64,000 nt of DNA from Shouchella oshimensis (GTDB taxonomy: Bacteria; Bacillota; Bacilli; Bacillales; Bacillaceae_D): NCBI RefSeq assembly GCF_002019765.1, contig NZ_KV917380.1, positions 3,645,836 through 3,709,835 on the forward strand, read 5' to 3'. Numbering within the stretch: position 1 is the stretch's first letter; every line of letters begins with the position of its first letter. The position numbers and the translations under genes are program-made. Positions 19,877-63,951 of this stretch are shown in pieces. The notes beneath the pieces were generated by a model. The model worked only from the letters and a program-made list of their open reading frames with translations. It was not told the DNA's origin and did no database searches.

Positions 19877-19877
19877 T

Positions 19878-22428: not shown

Positions 22429-22436
22429 CTAGTGTA

Positions 22437-22595: not shown

Positions 22596-22618
22596 ACTTC
22601 CCACACCTTTCCCTTATG

Positions 22619-42960: not shown

Positions 42961-44443
42961 CTTTTTCACCTCTCTTGTTTTCATCGACTATTGGCAAAGT
43001 GAACTGAATGGTAGTACCTTCGTTAACCTTACTTGTAATTTCCACCATTCCTTCATGAGCTTCAACGATTTGCTTGACAATGGCTAATCCAATGCCACTT
43101 CCTCCTTGATCTGTCCCTCGAGAAGCCTCCGCCCTATAAAATCGATCAAACACGTAAGGTAAAGCCTTTTCTTCAATGCCTTGACCATTATCTGTAATAG
43201 AGATACATACAACTTGCCCTCTTTCACTTGCATGTACGTGTATTCTTTTTTCATCTTGATTCATAAATTTAACGCTATTGGCTAAAAGATTAGCAAACAC
43301 TTTATAAAGTTGAGCTCGGTCAGCTAAAACAAGGGTTTCTGGATGAATGCTTACATTTGATTCAATCTCAACCTCATCGTATTCCAATTGAAATGCTTCA
43401 ATAATATCTCTTAGATAAGGTCGAAGATTTACACACTCAAAATGAAATGGAATGCTATTTAAATCTAGTTTTGAAAAGAGCAAAAGTTCATCAATTAATT
43501 GATCCATTTCTGAGGCTTTTGTGTGGATAATTTGAATATATTTATCCAATTTATTCTGATCCCTTGCAACACCATCGATGATTCCCTGAATATGCCCCTT
43601 AATTGAGGTAATCGGTGTCTTCAAATCATGCGAGATATTGTTGATTAATTCTTTTCGGTTTTCGTCATACTTTTCTTGAAGCGCCACAGATTGCTTTAAT
43701 TGCAGCCTCATTTCTTCAAAGGCACCTGCCAAATCACCAATTTCATCATTTCGCACAATACCAGTTTGTTCATTTAAGTTCCCGCTGGCAATCTCTCCTG
43801 CAGAACGGTGTAATCTTTTTAACGGCTGTATAAGATGCTTTGATATGACATACGTAATTACACCATTTGTCAAAATAAAGGCAACAATAAATCCAGTAAT
43901 AACAAGCGGAATGATGTTGGTTAGAAAGTCACTTACAGGTTCAACATCCAATGTAAAGAAGAGTGATCCATCGTCGCCATCAGGGAAACGAAAATCGGTT
44001 CCTGTATAGAGCCAATACTGACCGTCTTCACCTATTTGACCTTGATGATTCACATATGGATCAGACTCGCTTAACTGGTGCGCCGGTAAATAAGAGTAAA
44101 AAGTAGACGTATCTGCTTGCTGTCCATTTGTGAGCGTATCCCCTTTTCGAACGAAGATAGCGATTTGCCGATGTCCTAACAGATTCTCATACCGTGAAAC
44201 GATCGACTCATCTAATAGCTCATCTGGGCTCGAAATAGCGACTTGTTTTAACTCCGTAATGGCGGCTAATTCTTCATAAAAGAATGCTTCAACCGTCCGG
44301 TCATCTACTTGATAAAATTCTTTCATTTCTTCTATATTATTTAAAAATAGATGAAAAAGAAGATGAAGAAAGAGAATGAAAAGGCCAATGGGAATAATGG
44401 TCATTAATACATATGAAAGAATCAACTTTACTCGTATTGACAT
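42938..44443 (-). CDS. Sensor histidine kinase
   Basis: A 501-residue two-span sensor kinase. Span 1 is near residues 8-32, and a sensing domain of about 150 residues outside the membrane follows. Span 2 is near 182-204, with HAMP (KHLIQPLKRLHRSAGEIASGNL) after it. HisKA has the phospho-His in NNISHDLKTPITSIKGH, and the HATPase domain has FANLLANSVKFMNQ, ITDNGQGIEE and GIGLAIVKQIVEAHEG. The signal is unknown. It lies between the MMPL transporter and the regulator, in one direction. Confidence 0.92.
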   Translation of the reverse strand: MSIRVKLILSYVLMTIIPIGLFILFLHLLFHLFLNNIEEMKEFYQVDDRTVEAFFYEELAAITELKQVAISSPDELLDESIVSRYENLLGHRQIAIFVRKGDTLTNGQQADTSTFYSYLPAHQLSESDPYVNHQGQIGEDGQYWLYTGTDFRFPDGDDGSLFFTLDVEPVSDFLTNIIPLVITGFIVAFILTNGVITYVISKHLIQPLKRLHRSAGEIASGNLNEQTGIVRNDEIGDLAGAFEEMRLQLKQSVALQEKYDENRKELINNISHDLKTPITSIKGHIQGIIDGVARDQNKLDKYIQIIHTKASEMDQLIDELLLFSKLDLNSIPFHFECVNLRPYLRDIIEAFQLEYDEVEIESNVSIHPETLVLADRAQLYKVFANLLANSVKFMNQDEKRIHVHASERGQVVCISITDNGQGIEEKALPYVFDRFYRAEASRGTDQGGSGIGLAIVKQIVEAHEGMVEITSKVNEGTTIQFTLPIVDENKRGEKDEEDFNC

Positions 44444-44509
44444 CTTTTCTCTCCTTCCTCTGTCTGCTTTTTCATTATAATCGATCTCTTACTCTAAAAA
44501 AACGAAATG

Positions 44510-46792: not shown

Positions 46793-46900
46793 CCTGTACA
46801 CTTCCTCCTTTAGCTTCCCTTTTCTATTTTTTTATTGTAGTCGCAACTTCTAATCATTCTGTGAAATAAATCTTATCTTTTTCTTAACTATAGTGAAAAA

Positions 46901-48058
46901 TTAAATGAATTTTCGAACGGTTTTACTTTTACGAATAAAATGTGTAAAAGCAAAACTAATCAATACGGAAACCACACATTCTATTAAGAAGCGCACATAG
47001 ATCGGCTCAGAAAGATCTCGAAAAAAATATTGAACAAACACAACAATAGGCACATGGAATAAATAAACGCCGTATGTATTTTGCGAAAATTGACGGAACC
47101 CTTTATAAAGGTACCGACTTCCTTCTCTAAATAAAACAATCAATCCAATACCTAGCGATACCGTCATGAAACAATCCCATAGCGTCCATAGAAATGTATT
47201 TAAGCCAAATTCACCACTGGCAAGAAAAAACGGAATGTATTCATAGCCAAATAATGTTGTCAGTAAAAGTATGAAACCGAACCCAAGCCAAACCATCCCT
47301 CTTCTTATAGGAAAAGTTGTGAGCCAGTCCGTTCTATAGAGCAGCACGCCAAGTATGACAAACAGAGCATATTTTGGAACATTGGCATACTCCATTTGAA
47401 TGGCACCTAAAAATCCATTCCAATAATCTAATGGAAATTTTGTTCTCATGGCAAACGTAATCGTAGTCAACACTAGGATAAACGCGACAATCTTTACATT
47501 TGAGGGACGCCCTAAAAATTTGTGCTCTTTTTTTCTAACCAATAGCCTGATGAGGGTATAAATGCTTGCATAAATAAGTAAATGTTGTAAAAACCACAAG
47601 TGAGCGACTTTTAAATCGGGCCAAATGTCGAGCCAGCGATCATGGCAGGCATTAGCATCACCACCAATACCAAAGAACATATTCCATGTGTAACTGTATA
47701 GTGTCGTATATCCACAGTCTCTAAATTGTAAATGGTAAAAAAAATGAAGTGGAATAATCAGTAGAAAAACACCTGCGATAAACGGCACACCAACGCGAAT
47801 GAGCTTTCCTTTCATAAATTTTTTTGCCCCTTTTTTATCAAACGATGCTGGGAAGAAATAAGCAGAAAGTAAGAAAAAAAGAGCCATGGCAATAGGGTTT
47901 ATAATTTGGTAATAAACGAGTAGCCAGTCGTCTTCTGGCAATGATTTATAAAACCACCAAATACCTGGAGCATAGGCAAGCGCAACATGGACCGTAACGA
48001 TAAAGATAGCCATGAATACTTTTAAAAAATCTAAATAATCCAGTCTATTTTTGTCCAA
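46901..48058 (-). CDS. Acyltransferase 3 family membrane protein
   Basis: A 385-residue integral membrane acyltransferase of the OafA/AT3 type, with about ten spans. The catalytic His is expected in IVTVHVALAYAP near the N-terminus, and a further motif is LFFLLSAYFFP. Start is a TTG at 48058 with GGAGG seven bases upstream. Members transfer acyl groups to sugars, peptides or lipids at the membrane. It follows the PKS gene by 62 bases in the same direction, so it may acylate or tailor the product; a hairpin lies in the gap. Confidence 0.85.
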   Translation of the reverse strand: MDKNRLDYLDFLKVFMAIFIVTVHVALAYAPGIWWFYKSLPEDDWLLVYYQIINPIAMALFFLLSAYFFPASFDKKGAKKFMKGKLIRVGVPFIAGVFLLIIPLHFFYHLQFRDCGYTTLYSYTWNMFFGIGGDANACHDRWLDIWPDLKVAHLWFLQHLLIYASIYTLIRLLVRKKEHKFLGRPSNVKIVAFILVLTTITFAMRTKFPLDYWNGFLGAIQMEYANVPKYALFVILGVLLYRTDWLTTFPIRRGMVWLGFGFILLLTTLFGYEYIPFFLASGEFGLNTFLWTLWDCFMTVSLGIGLIVLFREGSRYLYKGFRQFSQNTYGVYLFHVPIVVFVQYFFRDLSEPIYVRFLIECVVSVLISFAFTHFIRKSKTVRKFI

Positions 48059-48079
48059 AAAGAAACCTCCATAATAGTA

Positions 48080-48106
48080 GGAAGAGAGTGTACGGTACTC
48101 TCTTCC
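48080..48106 (-). other. Intercistronic hairpin between PKS and acyltransferase genes
   Basis: A perfect 10-bp inverted repeat GGAAGAGAGT/ACTCTCTTCC (48080-48089 with 48097-48106) with a 7-nt loop. No T-run follows on the minus strand, so it looks more like an mRNA stability or processing element than a true terminator. Confidence 0.6.
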
Positions 48107-48120
48107 TTACTCAATTCAAA

Positions 48121-51100
48121 TTATTCTTTACCAAATAGAGACCCTGATAAGAGTTGTAACTCTTCGTTTAACTCCTCCACAGAGAAACCTTTCTTTGTAT
48201 CCCTCGACTCAGAAATAGTATGAATGCGATCTTGACGCCATTCTTTTGGCTTGCTTAACCCTGTTGCGATCCGATAAGTCGAGCGTTCAAATGGATAGGT
48301 TGGAAGCGGGATATGCTTGCTACCTGCTCCTGCTACTTTTGACAATGTTAGTGGAACTCCCTTCACCACTAATGATCCGATTAAAGCAAGTAAGGTATCT
48401 AGCGTACATTCATGATTGTTCATTGCTTCTCCCAAAACACCATTCGTCATAGAAAACCAGTTTTCTTTCTGAGTAAACAACTTCGGTTTAGCTATATCCA
48501 TTGCCATTAGCATTTCAGAAGCTGTAAGCGTTTTGGCATCTCCTAAACTTGTAAATAACGGTGCTTGCCAGCCATTGCCATTCTCAAAAAACACACTTGT
48601 CTCGGCGACAATATGCCTATCATGAAAGATAGAAAAAACGTGATCTACCGCGTGTTTATTCTTTAGCAACAACCCTGTTAATAGCCCGTTTTCGCTTGAA
48701 TGTAATGCCTCTACATCAAGCCCTAACCGTTTTAACTGGCAACATAGCGCATATTCCACAGCAACGGATCTCCACTGCATGAATTCATGTTCACTTAATG
48801 AATGAACAATAGCGTTCATACAGTGTTGATAATCCTCCTCAAACTCCGGGAACCGATTTGAAACTTGTTCTATCGTTCGATTATTCATAGACGGTTTACC
48901 ATTTAACACAAGCTGAATGGTCACTTGTTTATTCGGGTTTGACTTCCCATACACCAGTTCATTCGACTCTAATCCGAGGGATAGTGCCTGAAGCACCTGA
49001 CTAGCATGCTGTTTTGAATGTATGATTGTAGCGACTTTATGCGTTAACGCCTTTTGTCCTGTATTTAGTGAAAAACAAAAGTCAGCTAGCGTTACATCGT
49101 TCTCAGTTACATACTGATTAAGGTCAGAGGCTATCTTTTTCAATGTCGCCTTGCTTTTCCCATTAATCACCATTAATTGTGGTCCATCTGTTAATGGTTT
49201 GTTCACACCAATCTCAGGCATTGAAGGTGCGCCCTCAAGGATAATGTGTGCATTTGTTCCGCCAAAACCGAATGCGTTAATACCCGCTCTTAAAGGATGT
49301 TGATCTGTAGGCAACCAAGATTGGGACTTATTCACAACATAAAACGGTGTCTTCTCAAATGGAATGTTCTGATTGGCTTCCTCAAAATTTAAGGTTGGAG
49401 GCAATTGCTGGTTACTTATGGATAAAGCAACCTTTATTAAACTCGATAAACCAGATGCCGCCAACATATGGCCAACGGTTGGTTTTACTGAACCAATCCC
49501 ACAAAAATCAGTTTTATCTGTGAAGTGCCTGAATGCTTGAGTTAAACCTTCAATTTCAATAGGGTCGCCTAATGGCGTACCAGTCCCATGTGCTTCAATA
49601 TAAGAGACAGTCTCAGGATTAATACCTGAGGTTTGATAGGCAGCACGAACCGCCTCAGCCTGACCTTGGGGTCTCGGTGCAGTAATCCCTTGCGATCGAC
49701 CATCGTTATTTATTGCTGATCCTTTAATAACCGCATAAATATGATCATTGTCATGTATTGCCTTATTCACAGGCTTTAAGAGTACCGCACTACATCCTTC
49801 TGACAAGACCATACCATCTGCATCTTTATCAAATGGACGACACACTCCATTTGGTGATAAAGCAGAAACTCGACTTAAACTCGCAAATGGTGTTGGAGAT
49901 AAGTTCAAATTAACGCCTCCAACCAATGCCATTTCCACTTGACCAGTACGGAGCGCATCACAGGCTTGATGAACAGCGACTAATGAAGAAGAACAAGCAG
50001 TATTAATGACCATACTTGGACCAGTCAGATTGAATAAATGATTTACCCTAGCAGCTACTTCATTTAATCCATTTCCTGCTACAGCATCCGGTACAAGCTT
50101 ACCCGGTGCCAGTACGTGAGAAATGGTTTCCATGAGATCGTTTTTACTAGTTTCGTCCATGATTGAAAAAACAGGATGATTGGTTAACTGCTGTTCCAGA
50201 ACTTTGAAGGAACGATATCCAATAAAGTGCTCCATATATGTGTTTTGTTCGCACCCAACATATACCCCTACATTTGTTGATCTCTCTGAACTTCCATATC
50301 CTGCTTGTTGCATTGCTTCCCACGCTACTTCAAGAAATAGTCTTTGTTGAGGATCGGTTGCTTCTGCCTCGCTTGGTGACATTCCAAAAAAGGAAGGGTC
50401 AAAATCATAAGGCTGTTCAATAAATCCTCCGCGGTTACTATAACTGCTATGCAAGGATTCCCGATCCGAACTCACGTGGTCTTCTTTCGACCAACGATCT
50501 GCTGGCGTATCTTTAATGACAGACCTTCCGCTCGTTAATAAATTCCAATACTCGTCTGTAGTACTAGCGCCAGGAAATCTGAGACCTACTCCGATGATGG
50601 CTATATCTGAATCACTATGCGCAGGGTTTGAGAACTCTTTTTCTTTCTCCTGTATAAATGACGCTTGTCCAACGTCTTCTAAATACTTACTTAATTCATA
50701 GGGTGTCTGGTATTCAAACAGAAGCGTTGGGTTTAATTCCAATTTTAACGATTGTGCAATTTGATCAAGTACCGTAACCGCTCGTATAGAATCAATGCCT
50801 AATTCTTCAAAATTTCGGTTTGTCTCAAGTTCATCAACAGGACATTGTAATTGATCAGCAGTAATTTGATAGACTAGGTTTCGAATGGCCCCTTTTTCTA
50901 ACGTTACGTTCTGTTGTTTTTGAGAGCGATTCGCTTTTTCAATGGGCTCCCGCTTCATTGTCGAAGAAGGCATTCGATTCGTTTTTTCTTTTAGCACATG
51001 TAATACTGGCTCTCCATTGGCGTTTAGTGCTTGAAAGAAAACTTTAGAGCCCAATGATGACGAAACAGATTCCAACCCTTGCGTTTTCTTAATAAACGTC

Positions 51101-54100
51101 GACAAGGAACGAACAGAACGGGCAATGCCTTCTTTTTCCCATAAGGAATAATTGATCGCTATTGTTTTTCCAGGAGCTTCTTTTATCGTTGTTCTATAAT
51201 AACTATACTGATCAAGAAAGGCATTTGCGGCTGCATAGTCTCCAAGACCCGCTGACCATATTTTTTTAGATGCAGAAATGGATGAGAGCATCACAAAAAA
51301 TTTAAGGGAATCGTTTCTCGTTAATTCATCTAACACCCGTGTCCCGTTTATTTTTGGATTTAAAACAGCTTCTACACTCTCTTGATCACGTTTCATTAGA
51401 GACTTCGTTGTCTCAGGACTAAGAAGCCCAGCTCCATGAATAACACCATCAACACGTCCATATAACGTTCTCACTTCTGTTAACACACGGTCCATTTCTT
51501 GACGATTGCCAACATCAACTGCAAAGTAAGACACTCGCGAACCTAGCGACTTCAACCTAGAAAAGAGCTGTCGTTTGTACTCACTCTCCTCTAGAGGTGT
51601 TAATCCAGTTATAACTAAGTTGATTGGCGCTTTAGACGCCAACTCTAAAGCTATCTCACTTCCGATGCTTCCTGCACCGCCTGTGAAAACATACGTATCG
51701 TTTTCTTCAATGTTTATTTCATCTTCAAATGACATCTGCCTATTTTGTGTTAAAGCACGTACGTAACGTTTGCCCTTCCGAATAAGTGCCACTCCCTCTT
51801 CAGGCGGAAATCGCTTTAACTCCTCTTCAATTACAACTCCACAATCATCTTCTTCTACATCTATCGTAGACGCATAGACATGCGCTTCCGTGTCTAATAC
51901 ATTGGCAAACGTCGCATCCAGAGCTTGATAAGGGTTCTGCACACTATCTGTTTTCATTAATGGGTGCAACTGCTTCGTCACAACCAATATGCGCATTTGA
52001 TTCATGCTTTGCATGGATGTAAAAGAAGCAAGTGTCAAAAAGTCTTTCCAACTTTCTATATACTTTTCGTCACCCACTTTTTGACTTCCATAACTTAAAA
52101 AGACAACATTCTTAATATCAGAAGGCAAAACTGATTTTAAGTGTTCCCACTCAGATGCCTTAGATGGATTGACAGTAAAACAATAAGAGTCCTTTTGATT
52201 GAACGTTGAGCCATTCTCGACACGGTAGATAAGATCCTCACCTGTCTCCCTTAAATAATTGGCTATCGATTGTCCCCTATGACAATCGGATTCACTACTA
52301 ACAACTAAAGTCACTCCATTTCTATCCGGTTGATACGCTTTTCCTAGATCCTCCACCCACTGCCACTCATGAAACCATCGTAATAGTTGAGCTTTACTGT
52401 AATCTCCGAAAGAAGGCGAGAAGGTTGATCGTTCAAATGGATATAAAGGTAGTTGAATTTTTTTAAAGGACAGATCTTTATAAAGGGCGGACCAATCGAA
52501 CGCTATACCTCTTTCAAATAAGAAGCCTAAAGCTTCTGTGAAAAATTCCAGCTCTGACTTTTTCTTATTGATTAATGAGCAAACCTCAGGCTTTTTACCA
52601 CTTGTACTGACAGCGTTAGCCATTGCTGCAAGAAGATAATCAGGACCAGCCTCCAGAAATAGATTAGCTCCTTTTGCGATTGCGAACTCGACACTCTGGT
52701 CAAACTTTACTGAAGACGTAATGTGTTCAATCCAGTAAGCTGCATTCATTGGGCTATCCATATATTCGGCTGTAACATTAGAGATAATAGGAATCGATGG
52801 TTTTGAAAAGGATATTTTATCGAGTTCCCTCTTAAATTCTTCTAACATTGGTTTCATTAAAGGTGTATGAAACGCTTGTGAAACGTTTAATTTTTTGAAA
52901 GCGACTCCTTTTTGATTGATAAATTGTAAAAATTGGTTCAACGCTTCCTCACTACCAGATACAGCTTGGTGGGTCACGTTATACCCTGCAATCCATACCT
53001 TATCTTGAAAGTGTTCGAGTAATTCTTCGAGACTATCTTTTGAAGTAAACACTGCAGCCATAGCACCTGAAGAGCTTAATTCGTTCATTAACCTCCCTCT
53101 TAGCGCTACACATTTCGCAGCATCCTCTAATGTCACAACACCCGCCAACGTTGCAGCTACCCATTCACCTACGCTATGACCAATCATTGATGTAGGCTTT
53201 ACTCCCAGTTCAAGTAAGAGTCGACCAAGAGCATAATCCATTGCAAAAACAACAGGCTGCGTGATATCCGTTCTAGATAGTTCCGTTTGATTTGCGTGTT
53301 CGCTGAAAAGCAATTCAGTAATGGACTGAGTTAAATAAGGCCTAAATGCTTCAGAACAGTCATCGAAATACTGTTTAAAGATGGGAACATATTTATACAA
53401 CTGCTGACCCATTCCAACATACTGAGACCCTTGACCGGTAAACATGAATACAATGTTTCGATTTCCTTTTTTCTTGGTTATCTTTTTGCTTGTAAATGTC
53501 GAGAGCTTTAGCTTCAAATCTTCTACATTTTTACTTGAAAAACTTATACGATAATCCCATTGAGTTTTTGCATTTTCAGTACGAGCAACATCTCCAACAT
53601 TCGGGTTATGGCGGTTTAAATAAGTTGATAACTGTTTTATTTTCTCCGTTAAAGCGTCTTCAGTATGGGCACTAAGACAAATGGAATGTACTGGTAGATC
53701 CTCTTCCTTAAAGGAAGTTACAACCGATTGATTAGGTGATTCCTCTAGGATCATGTGACAGTTTGTCCCACCAAAACCAAACGAATTAATGGCTCCACGT
53801 CTTAATCCTTCAGGTTTTTCCCAAACTTCCGACTTTTTCGGAATATAAAATGGTGTTTGATCTAAGTGAAGCATCGGATTCTCATTATGAACATTAATTT
53901 GCGGAACCAACGTTTGCTTCTCTAAAGAAAGCACCATTTTTATGAAACTTGCAATTCCAGCAGAGCTAAGCAAGTGCCCAATATTTGCTTTCACCGATCC
54001 TAAAGCAATAGATTGACGATCTACATCGTACCGTTGAAACGCACGCTCTAATGCTCGTACTTCACTTGGATCACCGATCGGAGTTCCAGTTCCATGTGCT

Positions 54101-57100
54101 TCCATGTATTGGATCGTCGTTGGAGAAATCGCACTTTGTTCATATGTGGATTGAACCACTTCCCTTTGACCATCAGGATTAGGTGCCATCACACCAATAG
54201 AATGACCATCGTTGTTAATAGCGCTTGCTTTAATTACGGCTTGGATATGGTCTCCATCTTTAATCGCTTGGTGAACAGGTTTTAAAAGAACAAGACCCGC
54301 CCCTTCTCCTGGTACAAATCCATCTGCCTTTTCATCAAATACATTCGACGTTCCTTTCTCAGATAAAGCTCCTGCTTGGTTAAACAAACGATAAGGAGTT
54401 GCTGTCAGCAACAAGTGAATACCGCCGGCAATGGCCATCTTTATGTTGCCTTTAGCTAGTTCTTCACAAGCCATATGAAGGGAGACGAGTGATGAAGAAC
54501 AAGCGGTATCAATGACCATACTTGGCCCTTTTAAGTTAAATGTTTGAGAAGATCTAGCAGCAATCATATTAAGGATGTTATCTACTAACACATTAGGATG
54601 ATCCCCTACCTCACCAAATGACGTAGTCCATTCTTGAAGCAATTGTTCTTGCTGTTCAGAACTCAAAGCATTGAAACTATCAAACGCTTTAAATCGCTTT
54701 TGATTCATGGCACTTAAATGTTGTTCATAGTACGCGTTCACTCCAGCGCCAATATACATGCCGATCTTTTCCCCATTTACGGCTTCTTTGGAATATCCAG
54801 CTCGTTCAAATACTTCATAAGAAAGCTCCAAAATCAACCGTTGTTGCGGATCCATAATGACGGCTTCTTCTTCAGAAATACCAAATGCGGCAGGATCAAA
54901 ATCGAAAGGCTTCTGCAAAAAAGCTCCCTTCGGTTTATACTCACTTTCACTCTTCATTTGGTGATGAAAAGACGCATTTGTGCCAAAGCGTTCCATCGGT
55001 ATATCATTTATACTATCTTTTCCATTTATCAAATTTTCCCAAAACGCTTCTGGAGACGATGCATCAGGAAAACGGCAAGCCATTGCTATAACAGCAATAT
55101 CTTCTTCGTTATATTCCGTCTCGCTTGCATCCTCTACTTCCATGCTTGCTGCCACTTCGTCTTCAACGTTCGAGTGATAAATGAAATCAAACAAATACTG
55201 ATACATTTCAGAAACGGTTCGGCATCGTATGAGCATGTCATGGGTTAATGAAACATTCAATTCTTCCTCTAACATGCCTAAAACTTGAAACGCTTTTAAA
55301 GACGAACCACCTAACGTAAGAAAAGAAACGTCTTCTGGAACCTGATCAATTGGAAGGTTTAATACTTCCGCCCAACTCTGTTTAAGCGCACTCATCGTCT
55401 TTGTTTCAAGTGATACATCTTCATCCATTACCTCTTCTTTTTCTGAGATCATCCACTTGTTTAACTCTTCTGCAGTCAATGAATCACTTAAAATGCCGTT
55501 TTGAAAATCTTTTATTAACTCGAATCGCTGTACCTTTCCGCTTGTTGTTTTAGGAATACTGTTAATCATAATGACATAATGAATGGGTAATCCTGTCGTT
55601 TCACGAATATGAGAAAGCATTCCTTGGTAAAATTGTTTCTGCTCTGATTCCTTGACACGAAGCGTAGAAAAAACAGCTACTTTTTCGGTTCCTTCTTGCT
55701 CGTCTTGCCAACCACAAACCGCCACTTTTCCAGGCTTCACACCTTCTAGCTCCTCGATCTTTGTTTCAATATCATGAGCGTAATAGTTTTGTCCATTACA
55801 GAAAATAATGTCTTTTATACGACCGATGACAGTTAAACGACCGTTATCTAAAAAACCAGTATCTCCTGTTCTAAACCATCCATCTTGGAAAGCTTTCTCG
55901 TTCGCATCTTCATTATTGACATATCCACTTGTTAGGTTAGGTCCTCGTAGCTGAATCTCACCGATTGTTCGTTCTACAACGATTTCACCCGTCTCTCCCA
56001 CAATACGTACATCCATCCCATTAATAGGGAAGCCTTCATCAGCTAGATGTACTGCATCCTTATGATCCCATTCTAATTCTTGAACCGATTGCGAGAGATT
56101 CAATGTGTGCCTATTAATGGCATGTATTTTTGGCTCACTTCCACATGGAGGAAAGCATGCAGCTACACAAGCTTCAGCCATTCCATAAACCGGAAACATC
56201 GCACTTCGTTTTAGTCCATACGGTTCTAATTTCTTAACGAATGCTTCCATAACGGAAACAGCAATAGGTTCTGCCCCATTAAAAATTAAGCGTAGGGAAT
56301 GAAGATTTAATTTCTTCAACTTCTCTTCTCTTGCTCGAGCAAGGAGTAATCGGTATCCAAAATTAGGGCAGCCAGTTAACGTAATGTTATGTTTCGTAAT
56401 CAGTTCTAACCAAAGAATCGGCTTCTTTACAAATTTAACTGGGGACATATTGTATTGCTGAATTTGCATCGCCATCATGGAGAGATGGAACCCAATTAAA
56501 CCCATATCATGATGATAAGGCATCCAACTTAGGGAGCGATCCATGTCTGTAAATTGTGCAGCATCTACAATGGAATCAATATTTGCCAATAAATTTTTAT
56601 GACTTAATAAAACGCCTTTTGGAAGACTTGTGCTACCGGAGCTAAATTGAATAAATGCGGCATCTAGAACGTCCACCTTAGCTAGTTCACCGTACTGGTT
56701 TTCATGGTCTAACTGAATGGCTTCCACCCAATTCATATTAGCGCCTAGCAGCTCATTAATTGAACTTTGAGCTGCTCTTTCATCTGATAAAATAACGGGT
56801 TCACCTAAAACCGTCCAAATGCTCTTCACTTTTTCTAGCGCTGCCGATTGCGTTTTAAACGATTGGGGATAGGAAAGTGGAGCCGGGATAATACCACCTA
56901 AAATACAAGCCCAAAATGTCTTCAAGAACTCTTTATTGTCTTCAAGAATGACCATTACTGAATCTCCTGCTTGCACACCTATCTGTTGCAATCCGTATAA
57001 ACGTTTCTTCGCTGCTAAGAATAACTCCTCATAAGAAACAAATGTTTCTGATTCATCATTCTCAATGAACGTAACTCCTCGATCTTTTCTTTGTGCAGCT

Positions 57101-57207
57101 TCAGACAATAATTGTCCGATAGAAGATTTGACTTGAAAGCGGGTACTTATTTGGTTCCCTTTAGAGATAGCAAGAGGACCTGTCGATGATTCATTCCTAT
57201 TAACCAC
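48121..57207 (-). CDS. Modular PKS: FAAL-ACP-KS-AT-KR-ACP-KS-(decayed AT)
   Basis: A 3028-residue synthase. Domains by rough residue: fatty-acyl-AMP ligase 20-590 (FSSGSTSLPKGVLLSHKN, GRIKDIIFCNGQNYY); ACP 600-675 (LGGSSLKAF, Ser near 635); KS 698-1150 (DTACSSS with Cys903, EAHGTGT, NIGHLLS); AT 1248-1540 (MIGHSVGEW, LRGRLM with the malonyl Arg, QAFHTP, malonyl-like); KR 1830-2050 (TGGAGSIG, YAAANAF); ACP 2105-2180 (GIDSIRA); KS 2200-2650 (NTACSSS, EAHGTGT, TVGHMLA). The last 370 residues look like an AT whose GQGSQ and GHSxG motifs are gone, ending YPFERSTYR. No terminal ACP and no thioesterase. Start is a GTG at 57207 overlapping the MFS stop by eight bases. It should load a fatty acid and extend it. 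Confidence 0.93.
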   Translation of the reverse strand: MVNRNESSTGPLAISKGNQISTRFQVKSSIGQLLSEAAQRKDRGVTFIENDESETFVSYEELFLAAKKRLYGLQQIGVQAGDSVMVILEDNKEFLKTFWACILGGIIPAPLSYPQSFKTQSAALEKVKSIWTVLGEPVILSDERAAQSSINELLGANMNWVEAIQLDHENQYGELAKVDVLDAAFIQFSSGSTSLPKGVLLSHKNLLANIDSIVDAAQFTDMDRSLSWMPYHHDMGLIGFHLSMMAMQIQQYNMSPVKFVKKPILWLELITKHNITLTGCPNFGYRLLLARAREEKLKKLNLHSLRLIFNGAEPIAVSVMEAFVKKLEPYGLKRSAMFPVYGMAEACVAACFPPCGSEPKIHAINRHTLNLSQSVQELEWDHKDAVHLADEGFPINGMDVRIVGETGEIVVERTIGEIQLRGPNLTSGYVNNEDANEKAFQDGWFRTGDTGFLDNGRLTVIGRIKDIIFCNGQNYYAHDIETKIEELEGVKPGKVAVCGWQDEQEGTEKVAVFSTLRVKESEQKQFYQGMLSHIRETTGLPIHYVIMINSIPKTTSGKVQRFELIKDFQNGILSDSLTAEELNKWMISEKEEVMDEDVSLETKTMSALKQSWAEVLNLPIDQVPEDVSFLTLGGSSLKAFQVLGMLEEELNVSLTHDMLIRCRTVSEMYQYLFDFIYHSNVEDEVAASMEVEDASETEYNEEDIAVIAMACRFPDASSPEAFWENLINGKDSINDIPMERFGTNASFHHQMKSESEYKPKGAFLQKPFDFDPAAFGISEEEAVIMDPQQRLILELSYEVFERAGYSKEAVNGEKIGMYIGAGVNAYYEQHLSAMNQKRFKAFDSFNALSSEQQEQLLQEWTTSFGEVGDHPNVLVDNILNMIAARSSQTFNLKGPSMVIDTACSSSLVSLHMACEELAKGNIKMAIAGGIHLLLTATPYRLFNQAGALSEKGTSNVFDEKADGFVPGEGAGLVLLKPVHQAIKDGDHIQAVIKASAINNDGHSIGVMAPNPDGQREVVQSTYEQSAISPTTIQYMEAHGTGTPIGDPSEVRALERAFQRYDVDRQSIALGSVKANIGHLLSSAGIASFIKMVLSLEKQTLVPQINVHNENPMLHLDQTPFYIPKKSEVWEKPEGLRRGAINSFGFGGTNCHMILEESPNQSVVTSFKEEDLPVHSICLSAHTEDALTEKIKQLSTYLNRHNPNVGDVARTENAKTQWDYRISFSSKNVEDLKLKLSTFTSKKITKKKGNRNIVFMFTGQGSQYVGMGQQLYKYVPIFKQYFDDCSEAFRPYLTQSITELLFSEHANQTELSRTDITQPVVFAMDYALGRLLLELGVKPTSMIGHSVGEWVAATLAGVVTLEDAAKCVALRGRLMNELSSSGAMAAVFTSKDSLEELLEHFQDKVWIAGYNVTHQAVSGSEEALNQFLQFINQKGVAFKKLNVSQAFHTPLMKPMLEEFKRELDKISFSKPSIPIISNVTAEYMDSPMNAAYWIEHITSSVKFDQSVEFAIAKGANLFLEAGPDYLLAAMANAVSTSGKKPEVCSLINKKKSELEFFTEALGFLFERGIAFDWSALYKDLSFKKIQLPLYPFERSTFSPSFGDYSKAQLLRWFHEWQWVEDLGKAYQPDRNGVTLVVSSESDCHRGQSIANYLRETGEDLIYRVENGSTFNQKDSYCFTVNPSKASEWEHLKSVLPSDIKNVVFLSYGSQKVGDEKYIESWKDFLTLASFTSMQSMNQMRILVVTKQLHPLMKTDSVQNPYQALDATFANVLDTEAHVYASTIDVEEDDCGVVIEEELKRFPPEEGVALIRKGKRYVRALTQNRQMSFEDEINIEENDTYVFTGGAGSIGSEIALELASKAPINLVITGLTPLEESEYKRQLFSRLKSLGSRVSYFAVDVGNRQEMDRVLTEVRTLYGRVDGVIHGAGLLSPETTKSLMKRDQESVEAVLNPKINGTRVLDELTRNDSLKFFVMLSSISASKKIWSAGLGDYAAANAFLDQYSYYRTTIKEAPGKTIAINYSLWEKEGIARSVRSLSTFIKKTQGLESVSSSLGSKVFFQALNANGEPVLHVLKEKTNRMPSSTMKREPIEKANRSQKQQNVTLEKGAIRNLVYQITADQLQCPVDELETNRNFEELGIDSIRAVTVLDQIAQSLKLELNPTLLFEYQTPYELSKYLEDVGQASFIQEKEKEFSNPAHSDSDIAIIGVGLRFPGASTTDEYWNLLTSGRSVIKDTPADRWSKEDHVSSDRESLHSSYSNRGGFIEQPYDFDPSFFGMSPSEAEATDPQQRLFLEVAWEAMQQAGYGSSERSTNVGVYVGCEQNTYMEHFIGYRSFKVLEQQLTNHPVFSIMDETSKNDLMETISHVLAPGKLVPDAVAGNGLNEVAARVNHLFNLTGPSMVINTACSSSLVAVHQACDALRTGQVEMALVGGVNLNLSPTPFASLSRVSALSPNGVCRPFDKDADGMVLSEGCSAVLLKPVNKAIHDNDHIYAVIKGSAINNDGRSQGITAPRPQGQAEAVRAAYQTSGINPETVSYIEAHGTGTPLGDPIEIEGLTQAFRHFTDKTDFCGIGSVKPTVGHMLAASGLSSLIKVALSISNQQLPPTLNFEEANQNIPFEKTPFYVVNKSQSWLPTDQHPLRAGINAFGFGGTNAHIILEGAPSMPEIGVNKPLTDGPQLMVINGKSKATLKKIASDLNQYVTENDVTLADFCFSLNTGQKALTHKVATIIHSKQHASQVLQALSLGLESNELVYGKSNPNKQVTIQLVLNGKPSMNNRTIEQVSNRFPEFEEDYQHCMNAIVHSLSEHEFMQWRSVAVEYALCCQLKRLGLDVEALHSSENGLLTGLLLKNKHAVDHVFSIFHDRHIVAETSVFFENGNGWQAPLFTSLGDAKTLTASEMLMAMDIAKPKLFTQKENWFSMTNGVLGEAMNNHECTLDTLLALIGSLVVKGVPLTLSKVAGAGSKHIPLPTYPFERSTYRIATGLSKPKEWRQDRIHTISESRDTKKGFSVEELNEELQLLSGSLFGKE

Positions 57208-58369
57208 TTAAATTCCCCCGATCGAACTTTTTTTTGTGCTTCTCTCTGACTAACTGCAACCCCACGAATAGGAGTAACGATAAAAAGAATACTAAAGTCA
57301 GACTAAATATGTGTTGAATTCCCAAGCTAGCAATCACCAATGCCGATAGAATTGGGCCTGCTGCCGAGCCCGCTGCATACGTAAACGTAAAGAGCGCTGT
57401 ACCAGATGGAAGTTCTTCTTGAGTTAAATCTTGAACGGTAAGGGCTAATGTGAGTGGATAAAATGGTCCTACAACAAACCCTGTTATAAAAGAAAATAGA
57501 AGCATGGTTTGATAGTGGTCAATTGCCACCACACCTGCTAAGGACAAAATAGACACGGCTATAACGACTACAAAACATTTTTTCCGGCCTACACGATCGG
57601 CCAAATACGTTATAGGAAGGGTGCCAATCACACATCCCACTATAAATGCGCCTACCGCTATACCAACTTCCGCAACACCCACACCTCTCATAAGTAAGAA
57701 CATTGGGAATAGCGCGATGACTGTTGTTTCTGCAAAACCATACACAAATGCTCCATACAACGGAACTGGTACTTTATTTATTGTTTTATGTTTTGGATAA
57801 CGCGCAATGATTAAGCGACCTTTTAATTTCCGGTTCACAATAAAGCAACAAACAATCAATACAGCTGCTCCAATATAAAAAGGTAACATTGGTGAAAGTA
57901 CATAGCCTTTCGGACCAGTAATGGAGCTAACTGCAAAGCCTAGAGCGAAAAAAAGTGAATATAAACCACTTACTTTTGCACGATCCACTTCTTTTGAAAA
58001 AACGTGCATGGCTGTTTGAATACCTACAAGATTAAAGCTAATGCCTGTTCCCATAGCAAGCATTAAAAGCAACCACAGTATCGGACTTGTTGTATGCGGA
58101 AATGCAATAGCGCTAATAGCTGTAATAAACAAGCCCATCACGACCATAACCGAAAAATCATTCCCCCTCATTTTCCGGTCAATATAGACAGATCCAACAG
58201 CTAAAGCAATAAAGAAGGCAGAAGAGATGGTTCCAATCCAAAGGCTGTCTAGCTCAAGGGTTGTCATATGAGTTGTAGCAATGGGGATAAACATCCCCAT
58301 TGCTGTTCCTACTAGAAGCGCTACAACATAGATAAACGTTAATTTCAGTTCCTTTTTATCTGAACTCAT
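57200..58369 (-). CDS. MFS transporter of the PKS/NRPS operon
   Basis: A 389-residue major facilitator protein with twelve predicted spans. The loop motif ADRVGRKKC between helices 8 and 9 and GFVVGPFYPLTLALTVQ are family features. Its ATG overlaps the NRPS stop (ATGA), and its stop overlaps the PKS start by eight bases, so it is translated as part of the operon. Export of the cluster product is the natural inference. Confidence 0.9.
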   Translation of the reverse strand: MSSDKKELKLTFIYVVALLVGTAMGMFIPIATTHMTTLELDSLWIGTISSAFFIALAVGSVYIDRKMRGNDFSVMVVMGLFITAISAIAFPHTTSPILWLLLMLAMGTGISFNLVGIQTAMHVFSKEVDRAKVSGLYSLFFALGFAVSSITGPKGYVLSPMLPFYIGAAVLIVCCFIVNRKLKGRLIIARYPKHKTINKVPVPLYGAFVYGFAETTVIALFPMFLLMRGVGVAEVGIAVGAFIVGCVIGTLPITYLADRVGRKKCFVVVIAVSILSLAGVVAIDHYQTMLLFSFITGFVVGPFYPLTLALTVQDLTQEELPSGTALFTFTYAAGSAAGPILSALVIASLGIQHIFSLTLVFFLSLLLFVGLQLVREKHKKKFDRGNLSG

Positions 58370-61300
58370 CCTTGCATTGGCTCCTTACGATTTAGCATAG
58401 CTTGAATCATAGGGATTTGTTTGGAACCAAACCAGTTCATATCTTGCTTACCGTAGACTTTGATTTCTTCCCCTGTAATTCCGTTGGATCGCTCTGAAGA
58501 AAGGAATTGGACGACCTCTGCGACTTGCGAGGTAGGGATAGCATCTTTCCTCATTGCTGCTGGCGTCATATCTGTATCAACAAAGGCTGGACATACTGCA
58601 TTCACTTGAATACCACTTGCTTTAACCTCTTCTGCCAGTGACCTTGTCAAACCTAGCACACCATGTTTAGAGGCTGCATATGCGGTCATAAGAGGATAAC
58701 CAATGAGCGATGAATCAGAACCAAGGTTAATAATTTTGCCGTATGCCTGCTCTTTCATATACGGAAGAGCTGCAACACTCATCGTATAGGTACCAATTAA
58801 GTTAACCTGAATAATATTCAGCCAATCCTCGTGTGGAATCTGTTCCATCAATCCCATTTTCGTGATACCAGCGTTGTTTACTAACACATCAATTTGCCCA
58901 TAGCGTTCTACAATCTCTTTCATGAGTTGGGTTGCGTGAGCCATTTTTGTGACATCCACTTCATAAGAAGCTGGGTTCCCACCATAGACTTTCAAATCGT
59001 TTACTGTGCGCTTTAATTGAGGCTGATTTCTCGATGCAATAATAATTTGAGCCCCCGCAGCAGCCATGCGTTCTGCAATTGCTTTTCCAATGCCAGTGCC
59101 ACCACCAGTTATTAATACAACCTTATTTTCCATTTCCTTACTCATTAATTGAATGGTATTTCCTTGGTTGGTAGGGCTTTGATCTAAGCTATCCATTAAG
59201 TCTTCCAACCTATCCATATAAGCACGCCCATAGGTTTCAATCGTGTTCTCATCGTACAGATTCTTTGAATACTCTATTTCAAGCTTTAATTCTCCTGATT
59301 CTACAAAGAAGAAAAATTCTAACATACATGTTCTGTTTTGAGTGGCAGAAGAAAATCGTTGATCCATTTGGGTAGGATCCATTTCAAATATGGATAAAGC
59401 ACCAACATCACGATTTCCTAAATAATTCGCTCGAATACTAGTTAAATGGACATCAGGATAAGTAGATTTAGGTAACTGTTCAGCGATTAAATCGTAGCTC
59501 ACACCAGTTAATGGAACTTGTTCTAATTCGTCCTTCACTAGTTGAATACGTCTCTCCCAACTGTCGCCTTTCCCTATTTGCAAAGGTAACGGGAAGTTAA
59601 CCGCAAAATTCCCAGCTGTATTCATAAAAGTCTTTCCATTCCCAAAATCTCTGCCATGCACCCGATGACTTACCGTAATCACGCTTTCGCCTGTAACATC
59701 TTTTAACATTTGATAGAGAGGAGCAACCAACAATGGATACATTTTTGTTTTGTACGTTTTCTTTGCCTTCCCCATTAATTGTTTAGTTTGTTCTTTCGAT
59801 ACGACAAATTGCTTGATTCGAGCCGAACCTTCATCGTTTGTACCCTCTTTATCCGGAGGTAAAGAAAAACATCCGTTTTGACGGCTTTGAATCAGTTTTT
59901 CTTTCCAGTAGTGCTCGTACTCTTCCTTATGTTCACGCTTCATCTCGTCCAAAAATTGAAGAAAGTCTTGATACGATGCTTCTTTTTCTGGGATAACAGC
60001 TCCTGTTAACAATTGACTATAGAGCAACCACATTTCTTTGAACAATAGTTGGTTTGTAATGACGTCTGAGATCATATGGTGACCAATAAAAGCCATATGA
60101 TAACGCTCTGACTGATTCTTAATGACCACAACTTTCCATAGTGGCCATTGCTGAATGGAAAGTTCCTTAATAGATTGTTGGATTTTCTCACTCATAATTG
60201 GTTTAACAGACTCGTCAGATAAGCCTGTTAGATCAAGAAAATCGCACCCTATCTCAAGAGGTTCATTCAAAATTTGTTGCTTCCATTCTCCACTATCTTT
60301 ACTAAAAACAGTGCGTAAAGCTTCATTTTGGTTTGTTAACTGACGTAATGCTTGATTAAAAACATCTCTGTCGAGTTCTCGTTTGTACACAAACTGTGTG
60401 TAACCAGTCCAAGCATAAGGAAAATCAAAATAGTCGATAAGCCATTTTTGCGCAGGCATTAACGGCAAGTGAATAAGGTCGGTTTTTAGTTTTCCTCGAT
60501 CCATTTTTCCATTTGTATTTTTAGGCAAACGATCTCGCCAAATAAACCGGTGTGGAAGCATGTAATCTGGCAGTGTCTCTTTTAAAGAATTAATCATCTG
60601 TCTATGTTCTTTTTCATTTCCAACTACGTATGCGATGAGTTTAATATGCTCAGTTTGTGTTTCATTTGCTAGAACCGCTGATTCCATGACATTCGGTAAG
60701 GCATTCAGGTGGGCTTCAATCTCGCCTAATTCGACTCGGTAACCCCTTATTTTAATTTGTGAATCCGTTCGTCCATGGTAATCAATTTGTCCATCCTCAC
60801 GCCAGCTACCTAAATCACCTGTACGATAAAGCATGTCCCCTGAGCGTGTGGAAAATGGGTTAGGAATAAATCGCTCGTCTGTCTGTTCTGGATTATTAAT
60901 ATAACCTTTCGCTACCTGGATACCACCAATATAGAGTTCACCAATACGACCAGTTGCTACGTGTTGTCGTTGTTCATCCAAAATATACACATCTACGCCA
61001 TCAATCGGCTCTCCTATTGGAATTGCTCTTTCCTCTTTATCATAAGAAGTTGGAATAATATGGCACGTTACGTCAATAGATGCTTCGGTGGGACCATACA
61101 AATTAGCTAATCCGATCTTTCCTCCGTACACACCTTGCCATTTCTGAATAACAGGTAGAGGTAAGGCTTCTCCACTAAAAAGTAGCCATCGTAACTGTTT
61201 AAATTCATATTCCTCACTTTGGATTGCATTAATAAATTCTGAAAACATGGATGGTACAAAATGCAAGACGTTAATCTGTTCCTTCGTTATCCAATCGGCA

Positions 61301-63951
61301 AATTCCCATGGGTTCCTAACAATATCCCGCTCAACCGGACAAATCGTTCCCCCATACATGATTGGCCAGAATAACTCCCAAACAGACACATCAAAACAAC
61401 ATGATGTCTTCTGAGCGACTCGCTCACCACTTTGAAGCTGGAACACAGATTGATGCCATTTAATTCGGTTCATAAACCCTTCATGACTTAACATAACGCC
61501 TTTAGGTTTTCCTGTTGATCCAGATGTAAAGATAACTGCCATTACATCCTCACCACTCACGGGAACATCCAATGCTTCTCTGGAAAAAGTAGTCCAGTTC
61601 GTTTCATCAATGTCCACTTCACAAACGTTCTTTCCTTCGTTAAAAAGATGTCCGTTTCCTGATTTTTCAGTTATGACTACTTCAATAGCGGACTGACTGA
61701 TGATTTGTTCAATACGCTCTTTAGGATAAGCAGGATCGATCGGTACATATGCTGCTCCTGTCTTTAACACAGCCAACATAGCTAAATTCATATTTATTCC
61801 AGGTCCTACCATCACACCTACCCGATGACCTTTTGTAATGGAACGTTCGTTAAACAAATAGTGAGCCAATTGATTTGAACTTTCATTAAGGTATTGATAA
61901 GTAAAAAGCTTTTGATGATGAGCCACTGCAATAGCTGCCGGTGTCTTTTGACTCTGTTCTACAAACAAATGGAACGGAACCGCATCGTCTTTTTTATGGC
62001 TGCTCTTTCCATCTATCACTTGTACAATTTGATCCATTGTTCGTGCTTGAAATAATAATTTCCGATCAATCTGTTGAAAGGTTTGTTGCAATGTCATAAT
62101 GAGGCGGATACGTTCCAAAGAATCTAAGCCAAGGTCAAATTCTAAATCTAGGTGTAAGTCACTTTGATGGAGTTTTCGGTTAAGAATTCCTTCTAGCTTT
62201 TCAAGAACAAGCGTCACGTTTTCCGATGATAATGATTGAGGCTGAACATTCTCTGTCTGAAATGAATCCTCCTTTACACTCATGTTGCCGATTGACTTCA
62301 ACTGCTCAAGGAAATGGTCCATATGCTGTTCTATATAAGTTGAGCTAAAAAATCCACTATCATAATTCGCTGTAAAAACTAATTCCCCATTGAATTTCTC
62401 AACAACAAGATCAATGGCAGCAGGATTTGTGCACGTGTAGGCCTCATAGTCTTCAATGGATAATTCTCCATAGGTTTCTTTAAAATTCGTTTCTCCTACG
62501 TAAGATAAATATAAATTTGATTTCAAGCTTGAACGAACAAAGGCTTTTGTCTGTTCAGTCAATTCACCATTCATTAAACGAATGTCATCTTTAGCCATTT
62601 GTGCGGCTGTTAAAGCCTGTGCTCGGTCAATACCGTTCGTTAAAGCAAAAAGTAGTTCTTGTTGGATGTGTTGTACGGTTACATGTAGCGGTTCATTAAT
62701 AGCATTTTCTTGAAAAGTAAACGCAATATTTTGGGCAAATGTGCCGAACAAATGTGAAGCATCAATGTGAGGGTATGTCTTTCCACCTGTAGGGATATTA
62801 ATGGACACATTCCCTTTTTCAGATGATAACTGTTGGATCGTTTTTAAATAAGTCGCTAAAATAACTTCAAATAAAGTTGCGTTCAGTTGCTTCGATTGTT
62901 TCATTAAGAGGTGACTAGCGGGTAAGTTTAGTTTTCTTTTCATTACGTTTGTCTTTATATGGCTTTGTTCTTGAACATACAGTCGACTTTCCTCTTGTTC
63001 AAGTGGATTAAATACGTATTTTGCTCTTCCTTGCTTCTTTAGGAATGTTTTTAACTGATCGATTTCTATTTGCTCATTCCACTTGTTTAAGCTGTGAACA
63101 ACTTCATTATACTGATTGACCGTGATGACTTGGTCTTCATTTTCAATAAAGACACCAGCATCATGTTCCTCGTAGATTTCCAATAGCTCCTTAAGAAACA
63201 TTTGATTACTTAAGCCGTCTGAGATGACATGTACAATATGAAGCACGATGGTAAATTGCTGATTGCCTGTTTGTATGACCTTCAATCCGTGCAATGGCCA
63301 TATGGTCAAATCGACGGATGTATTTAAATAGCGTTCATACAATTGATGAAGCCATTGTTCCTTCCCTTTTTCGCTTAACTGTTGAATATCTTCAATCATT
63401 AATTCAGGAGGGGTACAATTAGAGACCGTACTCATCTCCATATTTTCAAAGCTACTTCCTGGTTTATTCATCTTAAACACTGCTTGAAGAGGCGGATAAC
63501 GCTTAATTAAAGCGGCCCAAGAAGACCAAAGCCGACCTAGATCCAACTGGCCGTTCATGGTAACGCTCGAACAGATAGATAAAGTCGAAACGGCTTGTTG
63601 TGAAATAAAAAATGGGTATTGGGCATTAGCAATGGTAATGGTTTGTTCAATTCCTACGTCTTGGAAGCTAGATTCTGCTTCTTCAGTATTTCGAAAAATG
63701 GTAACGATATCCTCTACAGTATCGAGCATAAGTAAGGTATCAAAAGGGTGATTCTTCTCAAATGTCATCAGCTGATCATCAGGTAATAGTGTCATTAATT
63801 CATTCATTAACGTAACCATTTTAATCGAGTCTAACCCCAAATCTGCTTCTAGGTACATATCCATTTCAAGATCTTCGACAACGTGTCCAGTTATTTTGGC
63901 TATTTTTTCGATCACAAGATTTGACTGTGATTGTATCTGCTTCGTGGTCAA
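58366..63951 (-). CDS. Hybrid NRPS: ACP-C-PCP-A(Ser)-C-SDR
   Basis: An 1861-residue protein with an unusual domain order. ACP 8-90 (GLDSIKM, Ser42); condensation-type domain 100-545 (VHVISDG); PCP 575-650 (GLDSLER, Ser611); adenylation domain 665-1155 (FTSGSTGKPKGVMLSHEG, NLYGPTEASID, YRTGDLG, NTNGKMDRGKL); second condensation-type domain 1160-1590 (GHHMISDV, the final Gly of the motif is Val); short-chain reductase 1605-1861 (ITGGGTGIGKA, YAASKHG). The A-domain pocket residues read D-V-W-H-L-S-L-I-D-K, the serine code. The N-terminal ACP would complete the KS-only last module of the PKS. No thioesterase. Start is a TTG at 63951 with GGAGGG six bases upstream. Confidence 0.92.
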   Translation of the reverse strand: MTTKQIQSQSNLVIEKIAKITGHVVEDLEMDMYLEADLGLDSIKMVTLMNELMTLLPDDQLMTFEKNHPFDTLLMLDTVEDIVTIFRNTEEAESSFQDVGIEQTITIANAQYPFFISQQAVSTLSICSSVTMNGQLDLGRLWSSWAALIKRYPPLQAVFKMNKPGSSFENMEMSTVSNCTPPELMIEDIQQLSEKGKEQWLHQLYERYLNTSVDLTIWPLHGLKVIQTGNQQFTIVLHIVHVISDGLSNQMFLKELLEIYEEHDAGVFIENEDQVITVNQYNEVVHSLNKWNEQIEIDQLKTFLKKQGRAKYVFNPLEQEESRLYVQEQSHIKTNVMKRKLNLPASHLLMKQSKQLNATLFEVILATYLKTIQQLSSEKGNVSINIPTGGKTYPHIDASHLFGTFAQNIAFTFQENAINEPLHVTVQHIQQELLFALTNGIDRAQALTAAQMAKDDIRLMNGELTEQTKAFVRSSLKSNLYLSYVGETNFKETYGELSIEDYEAYTCTNPAAIDLVVEKFNGELVFTANYDSGFFSSTYIEQHMDHFLEQLKSIGNMSVKEDSFQTENVQPQSLSSENVTLVLEKLEGILNRKLHQSDLHLDLEFDLGLDSLERIRLIMTLQQTFQQIDRKLLFQARTMDQIVQVIDGKSSHKKDDAVPFHLFVEQSQKTPAAIAVAHHQKLFTYQYLNESSNQLAHYLFNERSITKGHRVGVMVGPGINMNLAMLAVLKTGAAYVPIDPAYPKERIEQIISQSAIEVVITEKSGNGHLFNEGKNVCEVDIDETNWTTFSREALDVPVSGEDVMAVIFTSGSTGKPKGVMLSHEGFMNRIKWHQSVFQLQSGERVAQKTSCCFDVSVWELFWPIMYGGTICPVERDIVRNPWEFADWITKEQINVLHFVPSMFSEFINAIQSEEYEFKQLRWLLFSGEALPLPVIQKWQGVYGGKIGLANLYGPTEASIDVTCHIIPTSYDKEERAIPIGEPIDGVDVYILDEQRQHVATGRIGELYIGGIQVAKGYINNPEQTDERFIPNPFSTRSGDMLYRTGDLGSWREDGQIDYHGRTDSQIKIRGYRVELGEIEAHLNALPNVMESAVLANETQTEHIKLIAYVVGNEKEHRQMINSLKETLPDYMLPHRFIWRDRLPKNTNGKMDRGKLKTDLIHLPLMPAQKWLIDYFDFPYAWTGYTQFVYKRELDRDVFNQALRQLTNQNEALRTVFSKDSGEWKQQILNEPLEIGCDFLDLTGLSDESVKPIMSEKIQQSIKELSIQQWPLWKVVVIKNQSERYHMAFIGHHMISDVITNQLLFKEMWLLYSQLLTGAVIPEKEASYQDFLQFLDEMKREHKEEYEHYWKEKLIQSRQNGCFSLPPDKEGTNDEGSARIKQFVVSKEQTKQLMGKAKKTYKTKMYPLLVAPLYQMLKDVTGESVITVSHRVHGRDFGNGKTFMNTAGNFAVNFPLPLQIGKGDSWERRIQLVKDELEQVPLTGVSYDLIAEQLPKSTYPDVHLTSIRANYLGNRDVGALSIFEMDPTQMDQRFSSATQNRTCMLEFFFFVESGELKLEIEYSKNLYDENTIETYGRAYMDRLEDLMDSLDQSPTNQGNTIQLMSKEMENKVVLITGGGTGIGKAIAERMAAAGAQIIIASRNQPQLKRTVNDLKVYGGNPASYEVDVTKMAHATQLMKEIVERYGQIDVLVNNAGITKMGLMEQIPHEDWLNIIQVNLIGTYTMSVAALPYMKEQAYGKIINLGSDSSLIGYPLMTAYAASKHGVLGLTRSLAEEVKASGIQVNAVCPAFVDTDMTPAAMRKDAIPTSQVAEVVQFLSSERSNGITGEEIKVYGKQDMNWFGSKQIPMIQAMLNRKEPMQG

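Follow-up and report, generated by a model that had tools for sequence, protein, structure and literature searches.

What does the hybrid polyketide synthase-nonribosomal peptide synthetase (PKS-NRPS) operon of Shouchella oshimensis make, and how is the product released from the enzymes? The operon was examined in a window, the whole stretch of DNA that was analysed (64,000 nucleotides), which covers positions 3645836-3709835 in a single-contig genome of 4.06 Mb. Four genes with intact open reading frames are present on the minus strand, in the order that had been predicted from the sequence. They encode an NRPS (58366-63951; 1861 amino acids; ACP-C1-PCP-A-C2-SDR), an MFS exporter (57200-58369), a PKS (48121-57207; 3028 amino acids; FAAL-ACP-KS1-AT1-KR-ACP-KS2-AT remnant), and a membrane acyltransferase, Acyl_transf_3 (46901-48058). 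The gene upstream of the NRPS, which we take to resemble a germination-receptor gene, is divergent. Thus, the NRPS is the first gene, and the operon ends within the window on that side. The genes had also been described as overlapping, and this applies to the NRPS and MFS genes (4 nt) and to the MFS and PKS genes (8 nt). It does not apply to the acyltransferase gene, which starts 62 nt after the PKS, with a hairpin in the gap, and is absent at that place in related operons. Its membership in the operon is uncertain. The hairpin, found by eye at 48080-48106, has perfectly paired 10-bp arms (GGAAGAGAGT/ACTCTCTTCC) around a 7-nt loop and no T run; it may set the fourth gene apart or attenuate its expression. 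No step in GC content was seen at the operon. A PF00109 search found no other type I PKS in the host genome; of its seven matches, two were in the PKS of the window, one was in a 419-amino-acid frame taken for FabF, and the remaining four, all short and partial, fell in frames of 372-399 amino acids.

The domain string of the PKS, FAAL-ACP-KS1-AT1-KR-ACP-KS2, was read from Pfam matches and motifs, and its domains, like those of the NRPS below, lie on the minus strand. Fatty acid activation by a FAAL domain, one extension by a KR-bearing module, and a second KS had all been claimed, and domains for each are present. The FAAL loading domain (55477-57132) was identified by Pfam and has matches in the PDB and NCBIfam. 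The NCBIfam fatty acyl-AMP ligase models match it below their cut-offs, as they do the loading domain of BamA that was scanned alongside. Its PDB matches are, in order, McyG, an "amino acid adenylation domain-containing protein", and then FAALs. It is possible that the starter is something other than a plain fatty acid. AT1 (52540-53451), with GHSVGE and AFHT motifs, is the sole intact AT in the operon, the KR of module 1 (51136-51696) was placed by Pfam and alignment, and KS2 (49381-50610) has an intact Cys-His-His triad. This triad is present in KS1 and KS2 of all 13 aligned PKSs, and so is GHSxGE in AT1; these 13 PKSs also share one domain order. The earlier reading missed a second AT, which is a remnant that has lost its catalytic serine. 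The KS2 linker and AT remnant (48124-49374) lack the serine of GHSxGE. In 13 of 13 PKSs, and in a further 10-row alignment, what follows KS2 aligns with ATs but lacks the active serine. Its place is taken by Glu in the window and by Gly in the 12 Paenibacillus rows. A fold model of the remnant had a mean pLDDT of 45 and was left unused. Since the remnant has no active serine, the malonate for module 2 would have to be supplied in trans by AT1 or another enzyme. The last PKS module is also without a KR. With its FAAL-ACP start, KS domains that carry Cys-His-His, and the C, A, and carrier domains of the NRPS, the line is a FAAL-loaded hybrid type I PKS-NRPS.

The NRPS begins with an ACP (63694-63930; LGLDSIKM), the presumed acceptor for PKS module 2. 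This carrier had been claimed, and the conserved GLDSIKM motif together with a profile match to the PCP of the NRPS (probability 94.6, 39 columns) speaks for it. Pfam lists the second carrier of the NRPS and does not list the N-terminal ACP separately; the carrier motif is found in two copies in 13 of 14 Paenibacillus NRPS rows. Next is C1 (62290-63624; VHVISDGLSNQ), a condensation domain predicted to couple the polyketide to serine. The PCP (62017-62208; LGLDSL) is found between C1 and the adenylation domain (60505-61962). A carrier motif precedes the A domain in each of 16 NRPS homologues, and none follows it within 110 residues. For 15 A-domain ends in reference NRPSs, a carrier was found after A in 12 (the pattern missed three) and before A in none. 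The domain order and active sites are kept in all 16 aligned NRPSs, and the SDR in 15.

The specificity code of the A domain was placed by hand, with positions that follow what we take to be the usual numbering. It is DVWHLSLIDK in the window, DIWHISLIDK in Paenibacillus, and DVWHASLIDK in the more distant locus L026 described below. DVWHLSLIDK appears as the L-Ser code in PMC10634486 and PMC11566119, one of which also warns that such code predictions can err. The code supports a serine-specific A domain, in agreement with the serine activation that had been claimed. The closest A-domain structure is the second adenylation domain of linear gramicidin synthetase subunit A, presumably a glycine module, and the window code differs from the glycine code. 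At the C-terminus is a FabG-like SDR (58456-59124; YAASK) with its catalytic residues present. It is of the classical FabG type with Tyr kept, unlike R*. There was no match to a thioester-reductase family in the NRPS or PKS, and none to a thioesterase family in the window NRPS or PKS, the NRPS of the related locus L029, or the terminal protein of L026. The order PCP before A, the absence of a thioesterase, and the character of the domain between A and SDR all went unnoticed in the original prediction.

That domain, C2 (59128-60468), is the second of two C-superfamily domains in the NRPS and is the candidate release or cyclising domain. It is most like an epimerization (E) domain. Its PDB sequence matches are headed by E domains, with names that are in part our own attribution, and the top 12 hits by fold are all E domains or E-containing proteins, among them TycA, which we take to hold an E domain. 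The fold class of C2 was the sole use made of a C2-SDR model with a mean pLDDT of 61, which was fair for the core of C2 and the first part of the SDR and poor for the last part of the SDR. In a 39-row tree, C1 and C2 each form a single clade (100/100 and 100/99), and C2 joins the E domains (94/97, slightly below the firm-support mark of the program). The reference E domains in the tree were labelled by our own reading of motif and position before a C domain. One reference, L087_0_1100, had been labelled C beforehand, groups in the E clade, and lacks EGHGRE; the other four of the five reference domains in the clade have that motif. C2 keeps HHxxSD (HHMISDV in the window). In place of EGHGRE it has SHRxHGR in 15 of 16 sequences (SHRVHGRD in the window) and SHKLNAR in the remaining one, so that the glutamate is replaced by R or K in all 16. 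This glutamate is catalytic in epimerization domains. Model TIGR01720 matches C2 with 57.4 bits, under its cut-off of 74.2, and C2 follows A, not PCP. C2 therefore has the sequence and fold class of an epimerization domain and its HHxxxD motif, and has neither the glutamate nor the position after a PCP. As the glutamate of EGHGRE is gone, C2 should not be classed as a working epimerase.

The operon had been regarded as an isolated case, and related operons are in fact present in Paenibacillus. The first homologues were found in Paenibacillus forsythiae, P. zanthoxyli, and P. rhizophilus, along with one contig filed in two proteobacterial MAGs. When 100 genomes of the Paenibacillus rhizophilus genus were searched with C2, 16 proved to carry the operon. 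Beyond the host, samples of 397 genomes of the host order (limit 1e-30) and 398 of the phylum (1e-45) yielded no member of the C2 family, and 300 genomes sampled from the order of the L026 host (1e-30) gave the starting genome only. Four other hits in the host-order search, with 24-26% identity, were taken as ordinary NRPS C or E domains and set aside. In plasmids, two tblastn searches with C2 gave less than 27% identity for all matches listed (9 of 9 in one, and the 60 listed out of 164 in the other). The full-length NRPS was also searched against 39 relatives, and the best of the matches listed covered single domains.

Neighbourhoods were fetched for 14 of the 16 Paenibacillus loci; the other two (L025, with no intact MFS gene, and L028) are on short contigs. 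The MFS gene is located between the NRPS and PKS genes in these operons as well, and export by the MFS protein, which had been proposed, is consistent with an exporter gene that is conserved in related operons. The NRPS, MFS, and PKS genes are all intact in 12 of 14 loci, and in these 12 no further ORF of at least 100 amino acids was found between operon genes. In L073/L074 (G500) the PKS falls into two separate frames, and the NRPS and PKS are broken and the MFS was not found in L079 (G462). Either decay or sequencing error could explain the broken frames. An Acg-family flavoprotein gene follows the PKS in 14 of 14 loci, in the place occupied by the membrane acyltransferase in the window. The host genome had no match to the Acg flavoprotein at E 1e-3 and has the Acyl_transf_3 gene instead. 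A PPTase follows the operon in three of 14 loci, and the family assignment was tested for one of these Paenibacillus genes.

A more distant relative is L026, the proteobacterial MAG contig JAGKXB010000026.1, where a C-PCP-A-C2 block without an SDR ends a trans-AT PKS. C2 is therefore present in both lineages and the SDR in only one. The L026 line resembles that of the window in its KS-ACP-C-PCP-A-C2 order with a Ser-like code, in its last PKS module without a KR, and in the MFS, Acg-like flavoprotein, and acyl hydrolase genes nearby. It differs in that the SDR is absent, the upstream modules are trans-AT, and no FAAL was seen on the fetched stretch. A LolA-like/DUF1329 protein, the MFS, and the Acg-like flavoprotein adjoin the trans-AT line at 18149-22671, and an acyl-hydrolase-like gene is beside it. 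In both lineages, then, C2 has Acg-like genes nearby. L026 and L027 have the same contig size (30,154 bp) and match, and are filed as Oxalobacteraceae and Cellvibrionaceae MAGs. With one contig in MAGs of different families, one binning is probably wrong, which leaves the host of L026 unsure.

Two genes on the opposite strand of the window probably serve the PKS. A stand-alone PksD-type acyl hydrolase (41315-42283, plus strand) and a phosphopantetheinyl transferase (40190-40891, plus strand), which probably activates the carriers, are found approximately 4.6 and 6.0 kb past the acyltransferase gene. Acyl hydrolases are recognized by the loss of the His before the Ser and by replacement of the Arg, usually by Gln, and those of this type act on short-chain thioesters, as described in PMC11775670. 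The protein encoded at 41315-42283 has GTSLGE, a GxSLGE motif without the preceding His, and Gln at the AT Arg position. Its best PDB match is PksD (E 1e-47), with the next at 2.5e-23. Hence, it was rejected as a malonyl supplier for KS2. It is like PksD of bacillaene in sequence, and differs in that it adjoins a PKS with its own cis AT. The window PKS, with which it probably works, is the sole type I PKS found in the genome. In Paenibacillus, an acyl-hydrolase-like match above 100 bits was found in two of ten genomes searched, so the gene is no core part of the system. A polyprenyl synthetase match is present near the PPTase, at 39044-39949. An MMPL transporter and then a histidine kinase and response regulator are found on one strand at 42256-46801, and look like a self-contained pump and sensor unit. 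The MMPL protein had been proposed as an exporter. This is unlikely, since it is grouped with the two-component system and is probably outside of the cluster.

The product is very probably built on an acyl-polyketide-serine backbone. From the domain order, active-site residues, serine code, and their conservation, as they are read in the sequence, we infer the following substrates and order of transfer. The FAAL-ACP would load a fatty acid, and KS1-AT1-KR-ACP2 would extend it once with malonate and reduce it to a beta-hydroxyacyl chain. KS2 would extend it without reduction, with malonyl supplied in trans as the local AT is dead, and pass it to the NRPS ACP. C1, A, and PCP would then couple the 3-oxo-5-hydroxyacyl chain to serine. 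The path that had been proposed, from fatty acid through FAAL, extension, KS2, and ACP to serine, fits this domain anatomy; it did not foresee the PCP before A or the extra C2.

Because the last PKS module has no KR, the serine amide is expected to bear a beta-keto group, which is the substrate for a Dieckmann closure. A beta-ketoacyl group joined to one amino acid is what a tetramate needs, and the missing KR points to it for this predicted chain. Without a KR in the last module and without a thioesterase, release by a Dieckmann closure on C2 is favoured. C2, which has kept the base His and lost the Glu, would deprotonate the active methylene and close the chain onto the serine thioester, and a 3-acyl-5-hydroxymethyl tetramic acid would leave without a thioesterase. 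The MFS protein would export it. Tailoring would fall to the SDR together with the acyltransferase in S. oshimensis or, in Paenibacillus, with the Acg flavoprotein. We tentatively prefer a serine-derived 3-acyl tetramic acid released in this manner by C2. Cyclisation by C2 fits L026, where the SDR is absent. The grouping of C2 with epimerases counts against it, as another C2 activity is possible. Elsewhere, tetramic acids are described as released by R or R* domains, thioesterases, and free cyclases (PMC8949500, PMC10161427). In mutanocyclin, lactam closure also occurs. It is conceivable, if doubtful, that C-PCP-A-C2, with or without the SDR, is a new terminal module, common to the cis-AT lines of Paenibacillus and the host and to the trans-AT line of L026, in which an epimerase-derived C2 is now a Dieckmann cyclase that makes serine-derived lipid tetramates without a thioesterase, R*, or a free cyclase.

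A conserved FabG-like SDR also speaks against the ring, since it could reduce the 3-keto group and thus prevent Dieckmann closure. With its complete catalytic residues in 15 of 16 NRPSs, the SDR could stand in for the KR that is missing from the second PKS module. The product would then be a linear lipid: the SDR would act on the 3-keto group while the chain is on the ACP or PCP of the NRPS, and hydrolysis would free a 3,5-dihydroxyacyl-serine, which would then perhaps be O-acylated and exported. Hydrolysis could be carried out by C2 with water, by an acyl hydrolase, or by a housekeeping thioesterase; the PksD-like acyl hydrolase is nearby, and elsewhere in the host genome a single PF00975 match exceeds the cut-off of that family. 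We consider this outcome unlikely. L026 has the same block without an SDR, and this also weakens the case for the reduction by the fused SDR that had been predicted. Among the ten Paenibacillus genomes searched, strong acyl hydrolase matches are limited to the two mentioned above, and such enzymes are described for short-chain thioesters (PMC11775670).

C2 could instead act on serine itself and remove its alpha proton to yield D-serine, or dehydroalanine through loss of the hydroxyl, with release by another route. It acts beside the serine module, and its tree position (94/97), its 12 best fold matches, and the TIGR01720 match below cut-off all lean toward E domains; L087_0_1100 in addition indicates that EGHGRE is not universal in that clade. 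This is nevertheless rather improbable, given that R or K takes the place of the Glu in every one of the 16 sequences, that the other four of five E-clade references keep EGHGRE, and that no other release domain is present. Reductive release, in which the terminal SDR would turn the seryl thioester into an aldehyde or alcohol, would agree with a C-terminal SDR and an absent thioesterase, and is very unlikely because the SDR is of the classical FabG type, no thioester-reductase family matched, and L026 has no SDR. Membership in the iturin/mycosubtilin lipopeptide family is hardly credible, since, although PKS residues 21-1258 are 34% identical to BamA 3-1186, no aminotransferase family or multi-module peptide synthetase was found by Pfam in the five proteins of the operon region, and a gene content with a single serine module in a different gene order already contradicts it.

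The iturin-family synthetases (bacillomycin D BamA-D, mycosubtilin) do have the FAAL-ACP-KS start in common with this operon and a related KS/ACP region. After this start they have an aminotransferase and go on to a seven-residue peptide. They also have a malonyl-CoA transacylase gene, whereas the operon here has a KR and a single serine module, and its end is unusual. For that end, the nearest kin of C2 by sequence, tree, and fold are the NRPS epimerization domains (TycA, TycB3, GrsA, BamB/BamC), which share HHxxxD. C2 differs from them in the change of Glu to R or K, in following A and not PCP, and in having no later peptide module. By description, the operon is also like epifadin EfiE of Staphylococcus epidermidis and malonomycin, where a polyketide and one last amino acid end in a terminal condensation-like domain (PMC11310079). 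There the C-terminal condensation-like domain of EfiE is taken as support for a tetramic acid, and such a domain is proposed to form the ring in malonomycin and a fungal product. Epifadin differs in its aspartate for serine, its trans-AT polyene, and its N-terminal peptide (PMC11310079), and its cluster has a thioesterase gene, unlike the PKS and NRPS of the window. Bacillus and Niallia plasmid hits were rejected as epifadin relatives: two proved to be NRPS genes like those for bacillomycin, another was a stretch either unrelated or without annotation, and a further one was a cluster that contains FkbH. On the Niallia taxi megaplasmid (L094), a cluster that is unannotated in its record reads by eye as FAAL-ACP, discrete AT, KS-ACP-C...FkbH-like...reductase. 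SolG of solanimycin was likewise set aside; its A domain matched and C2 did so weakly, and SolG is C-A-P. Searches of the open-access literature turned up no characterised pathway of this layout, and among the best 25 of 336 NCBIfam matches for the NRPS, no pathway-specific model attained its cut-off. Both results agree with the original prediction that none had been characterised.

The operon is of the PKS-NRPS kind, and its end is the part that most deserves attention. In one Paenibacillus genus, 16 of the 100 genomes searched carry it, and the papers searched name no product for it, so a single isolation would name a metabolite of many species. The order of PCP before A, kept in two lineages, bears on which arrangements of NRPS domains are possible. 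The end of the operon is a test case for a change of chemistry in the C-superfamily, with the same fold and one catalytic residue lost. With this residue gone, a domain derived from epimerases may instead close a ring and release the product.
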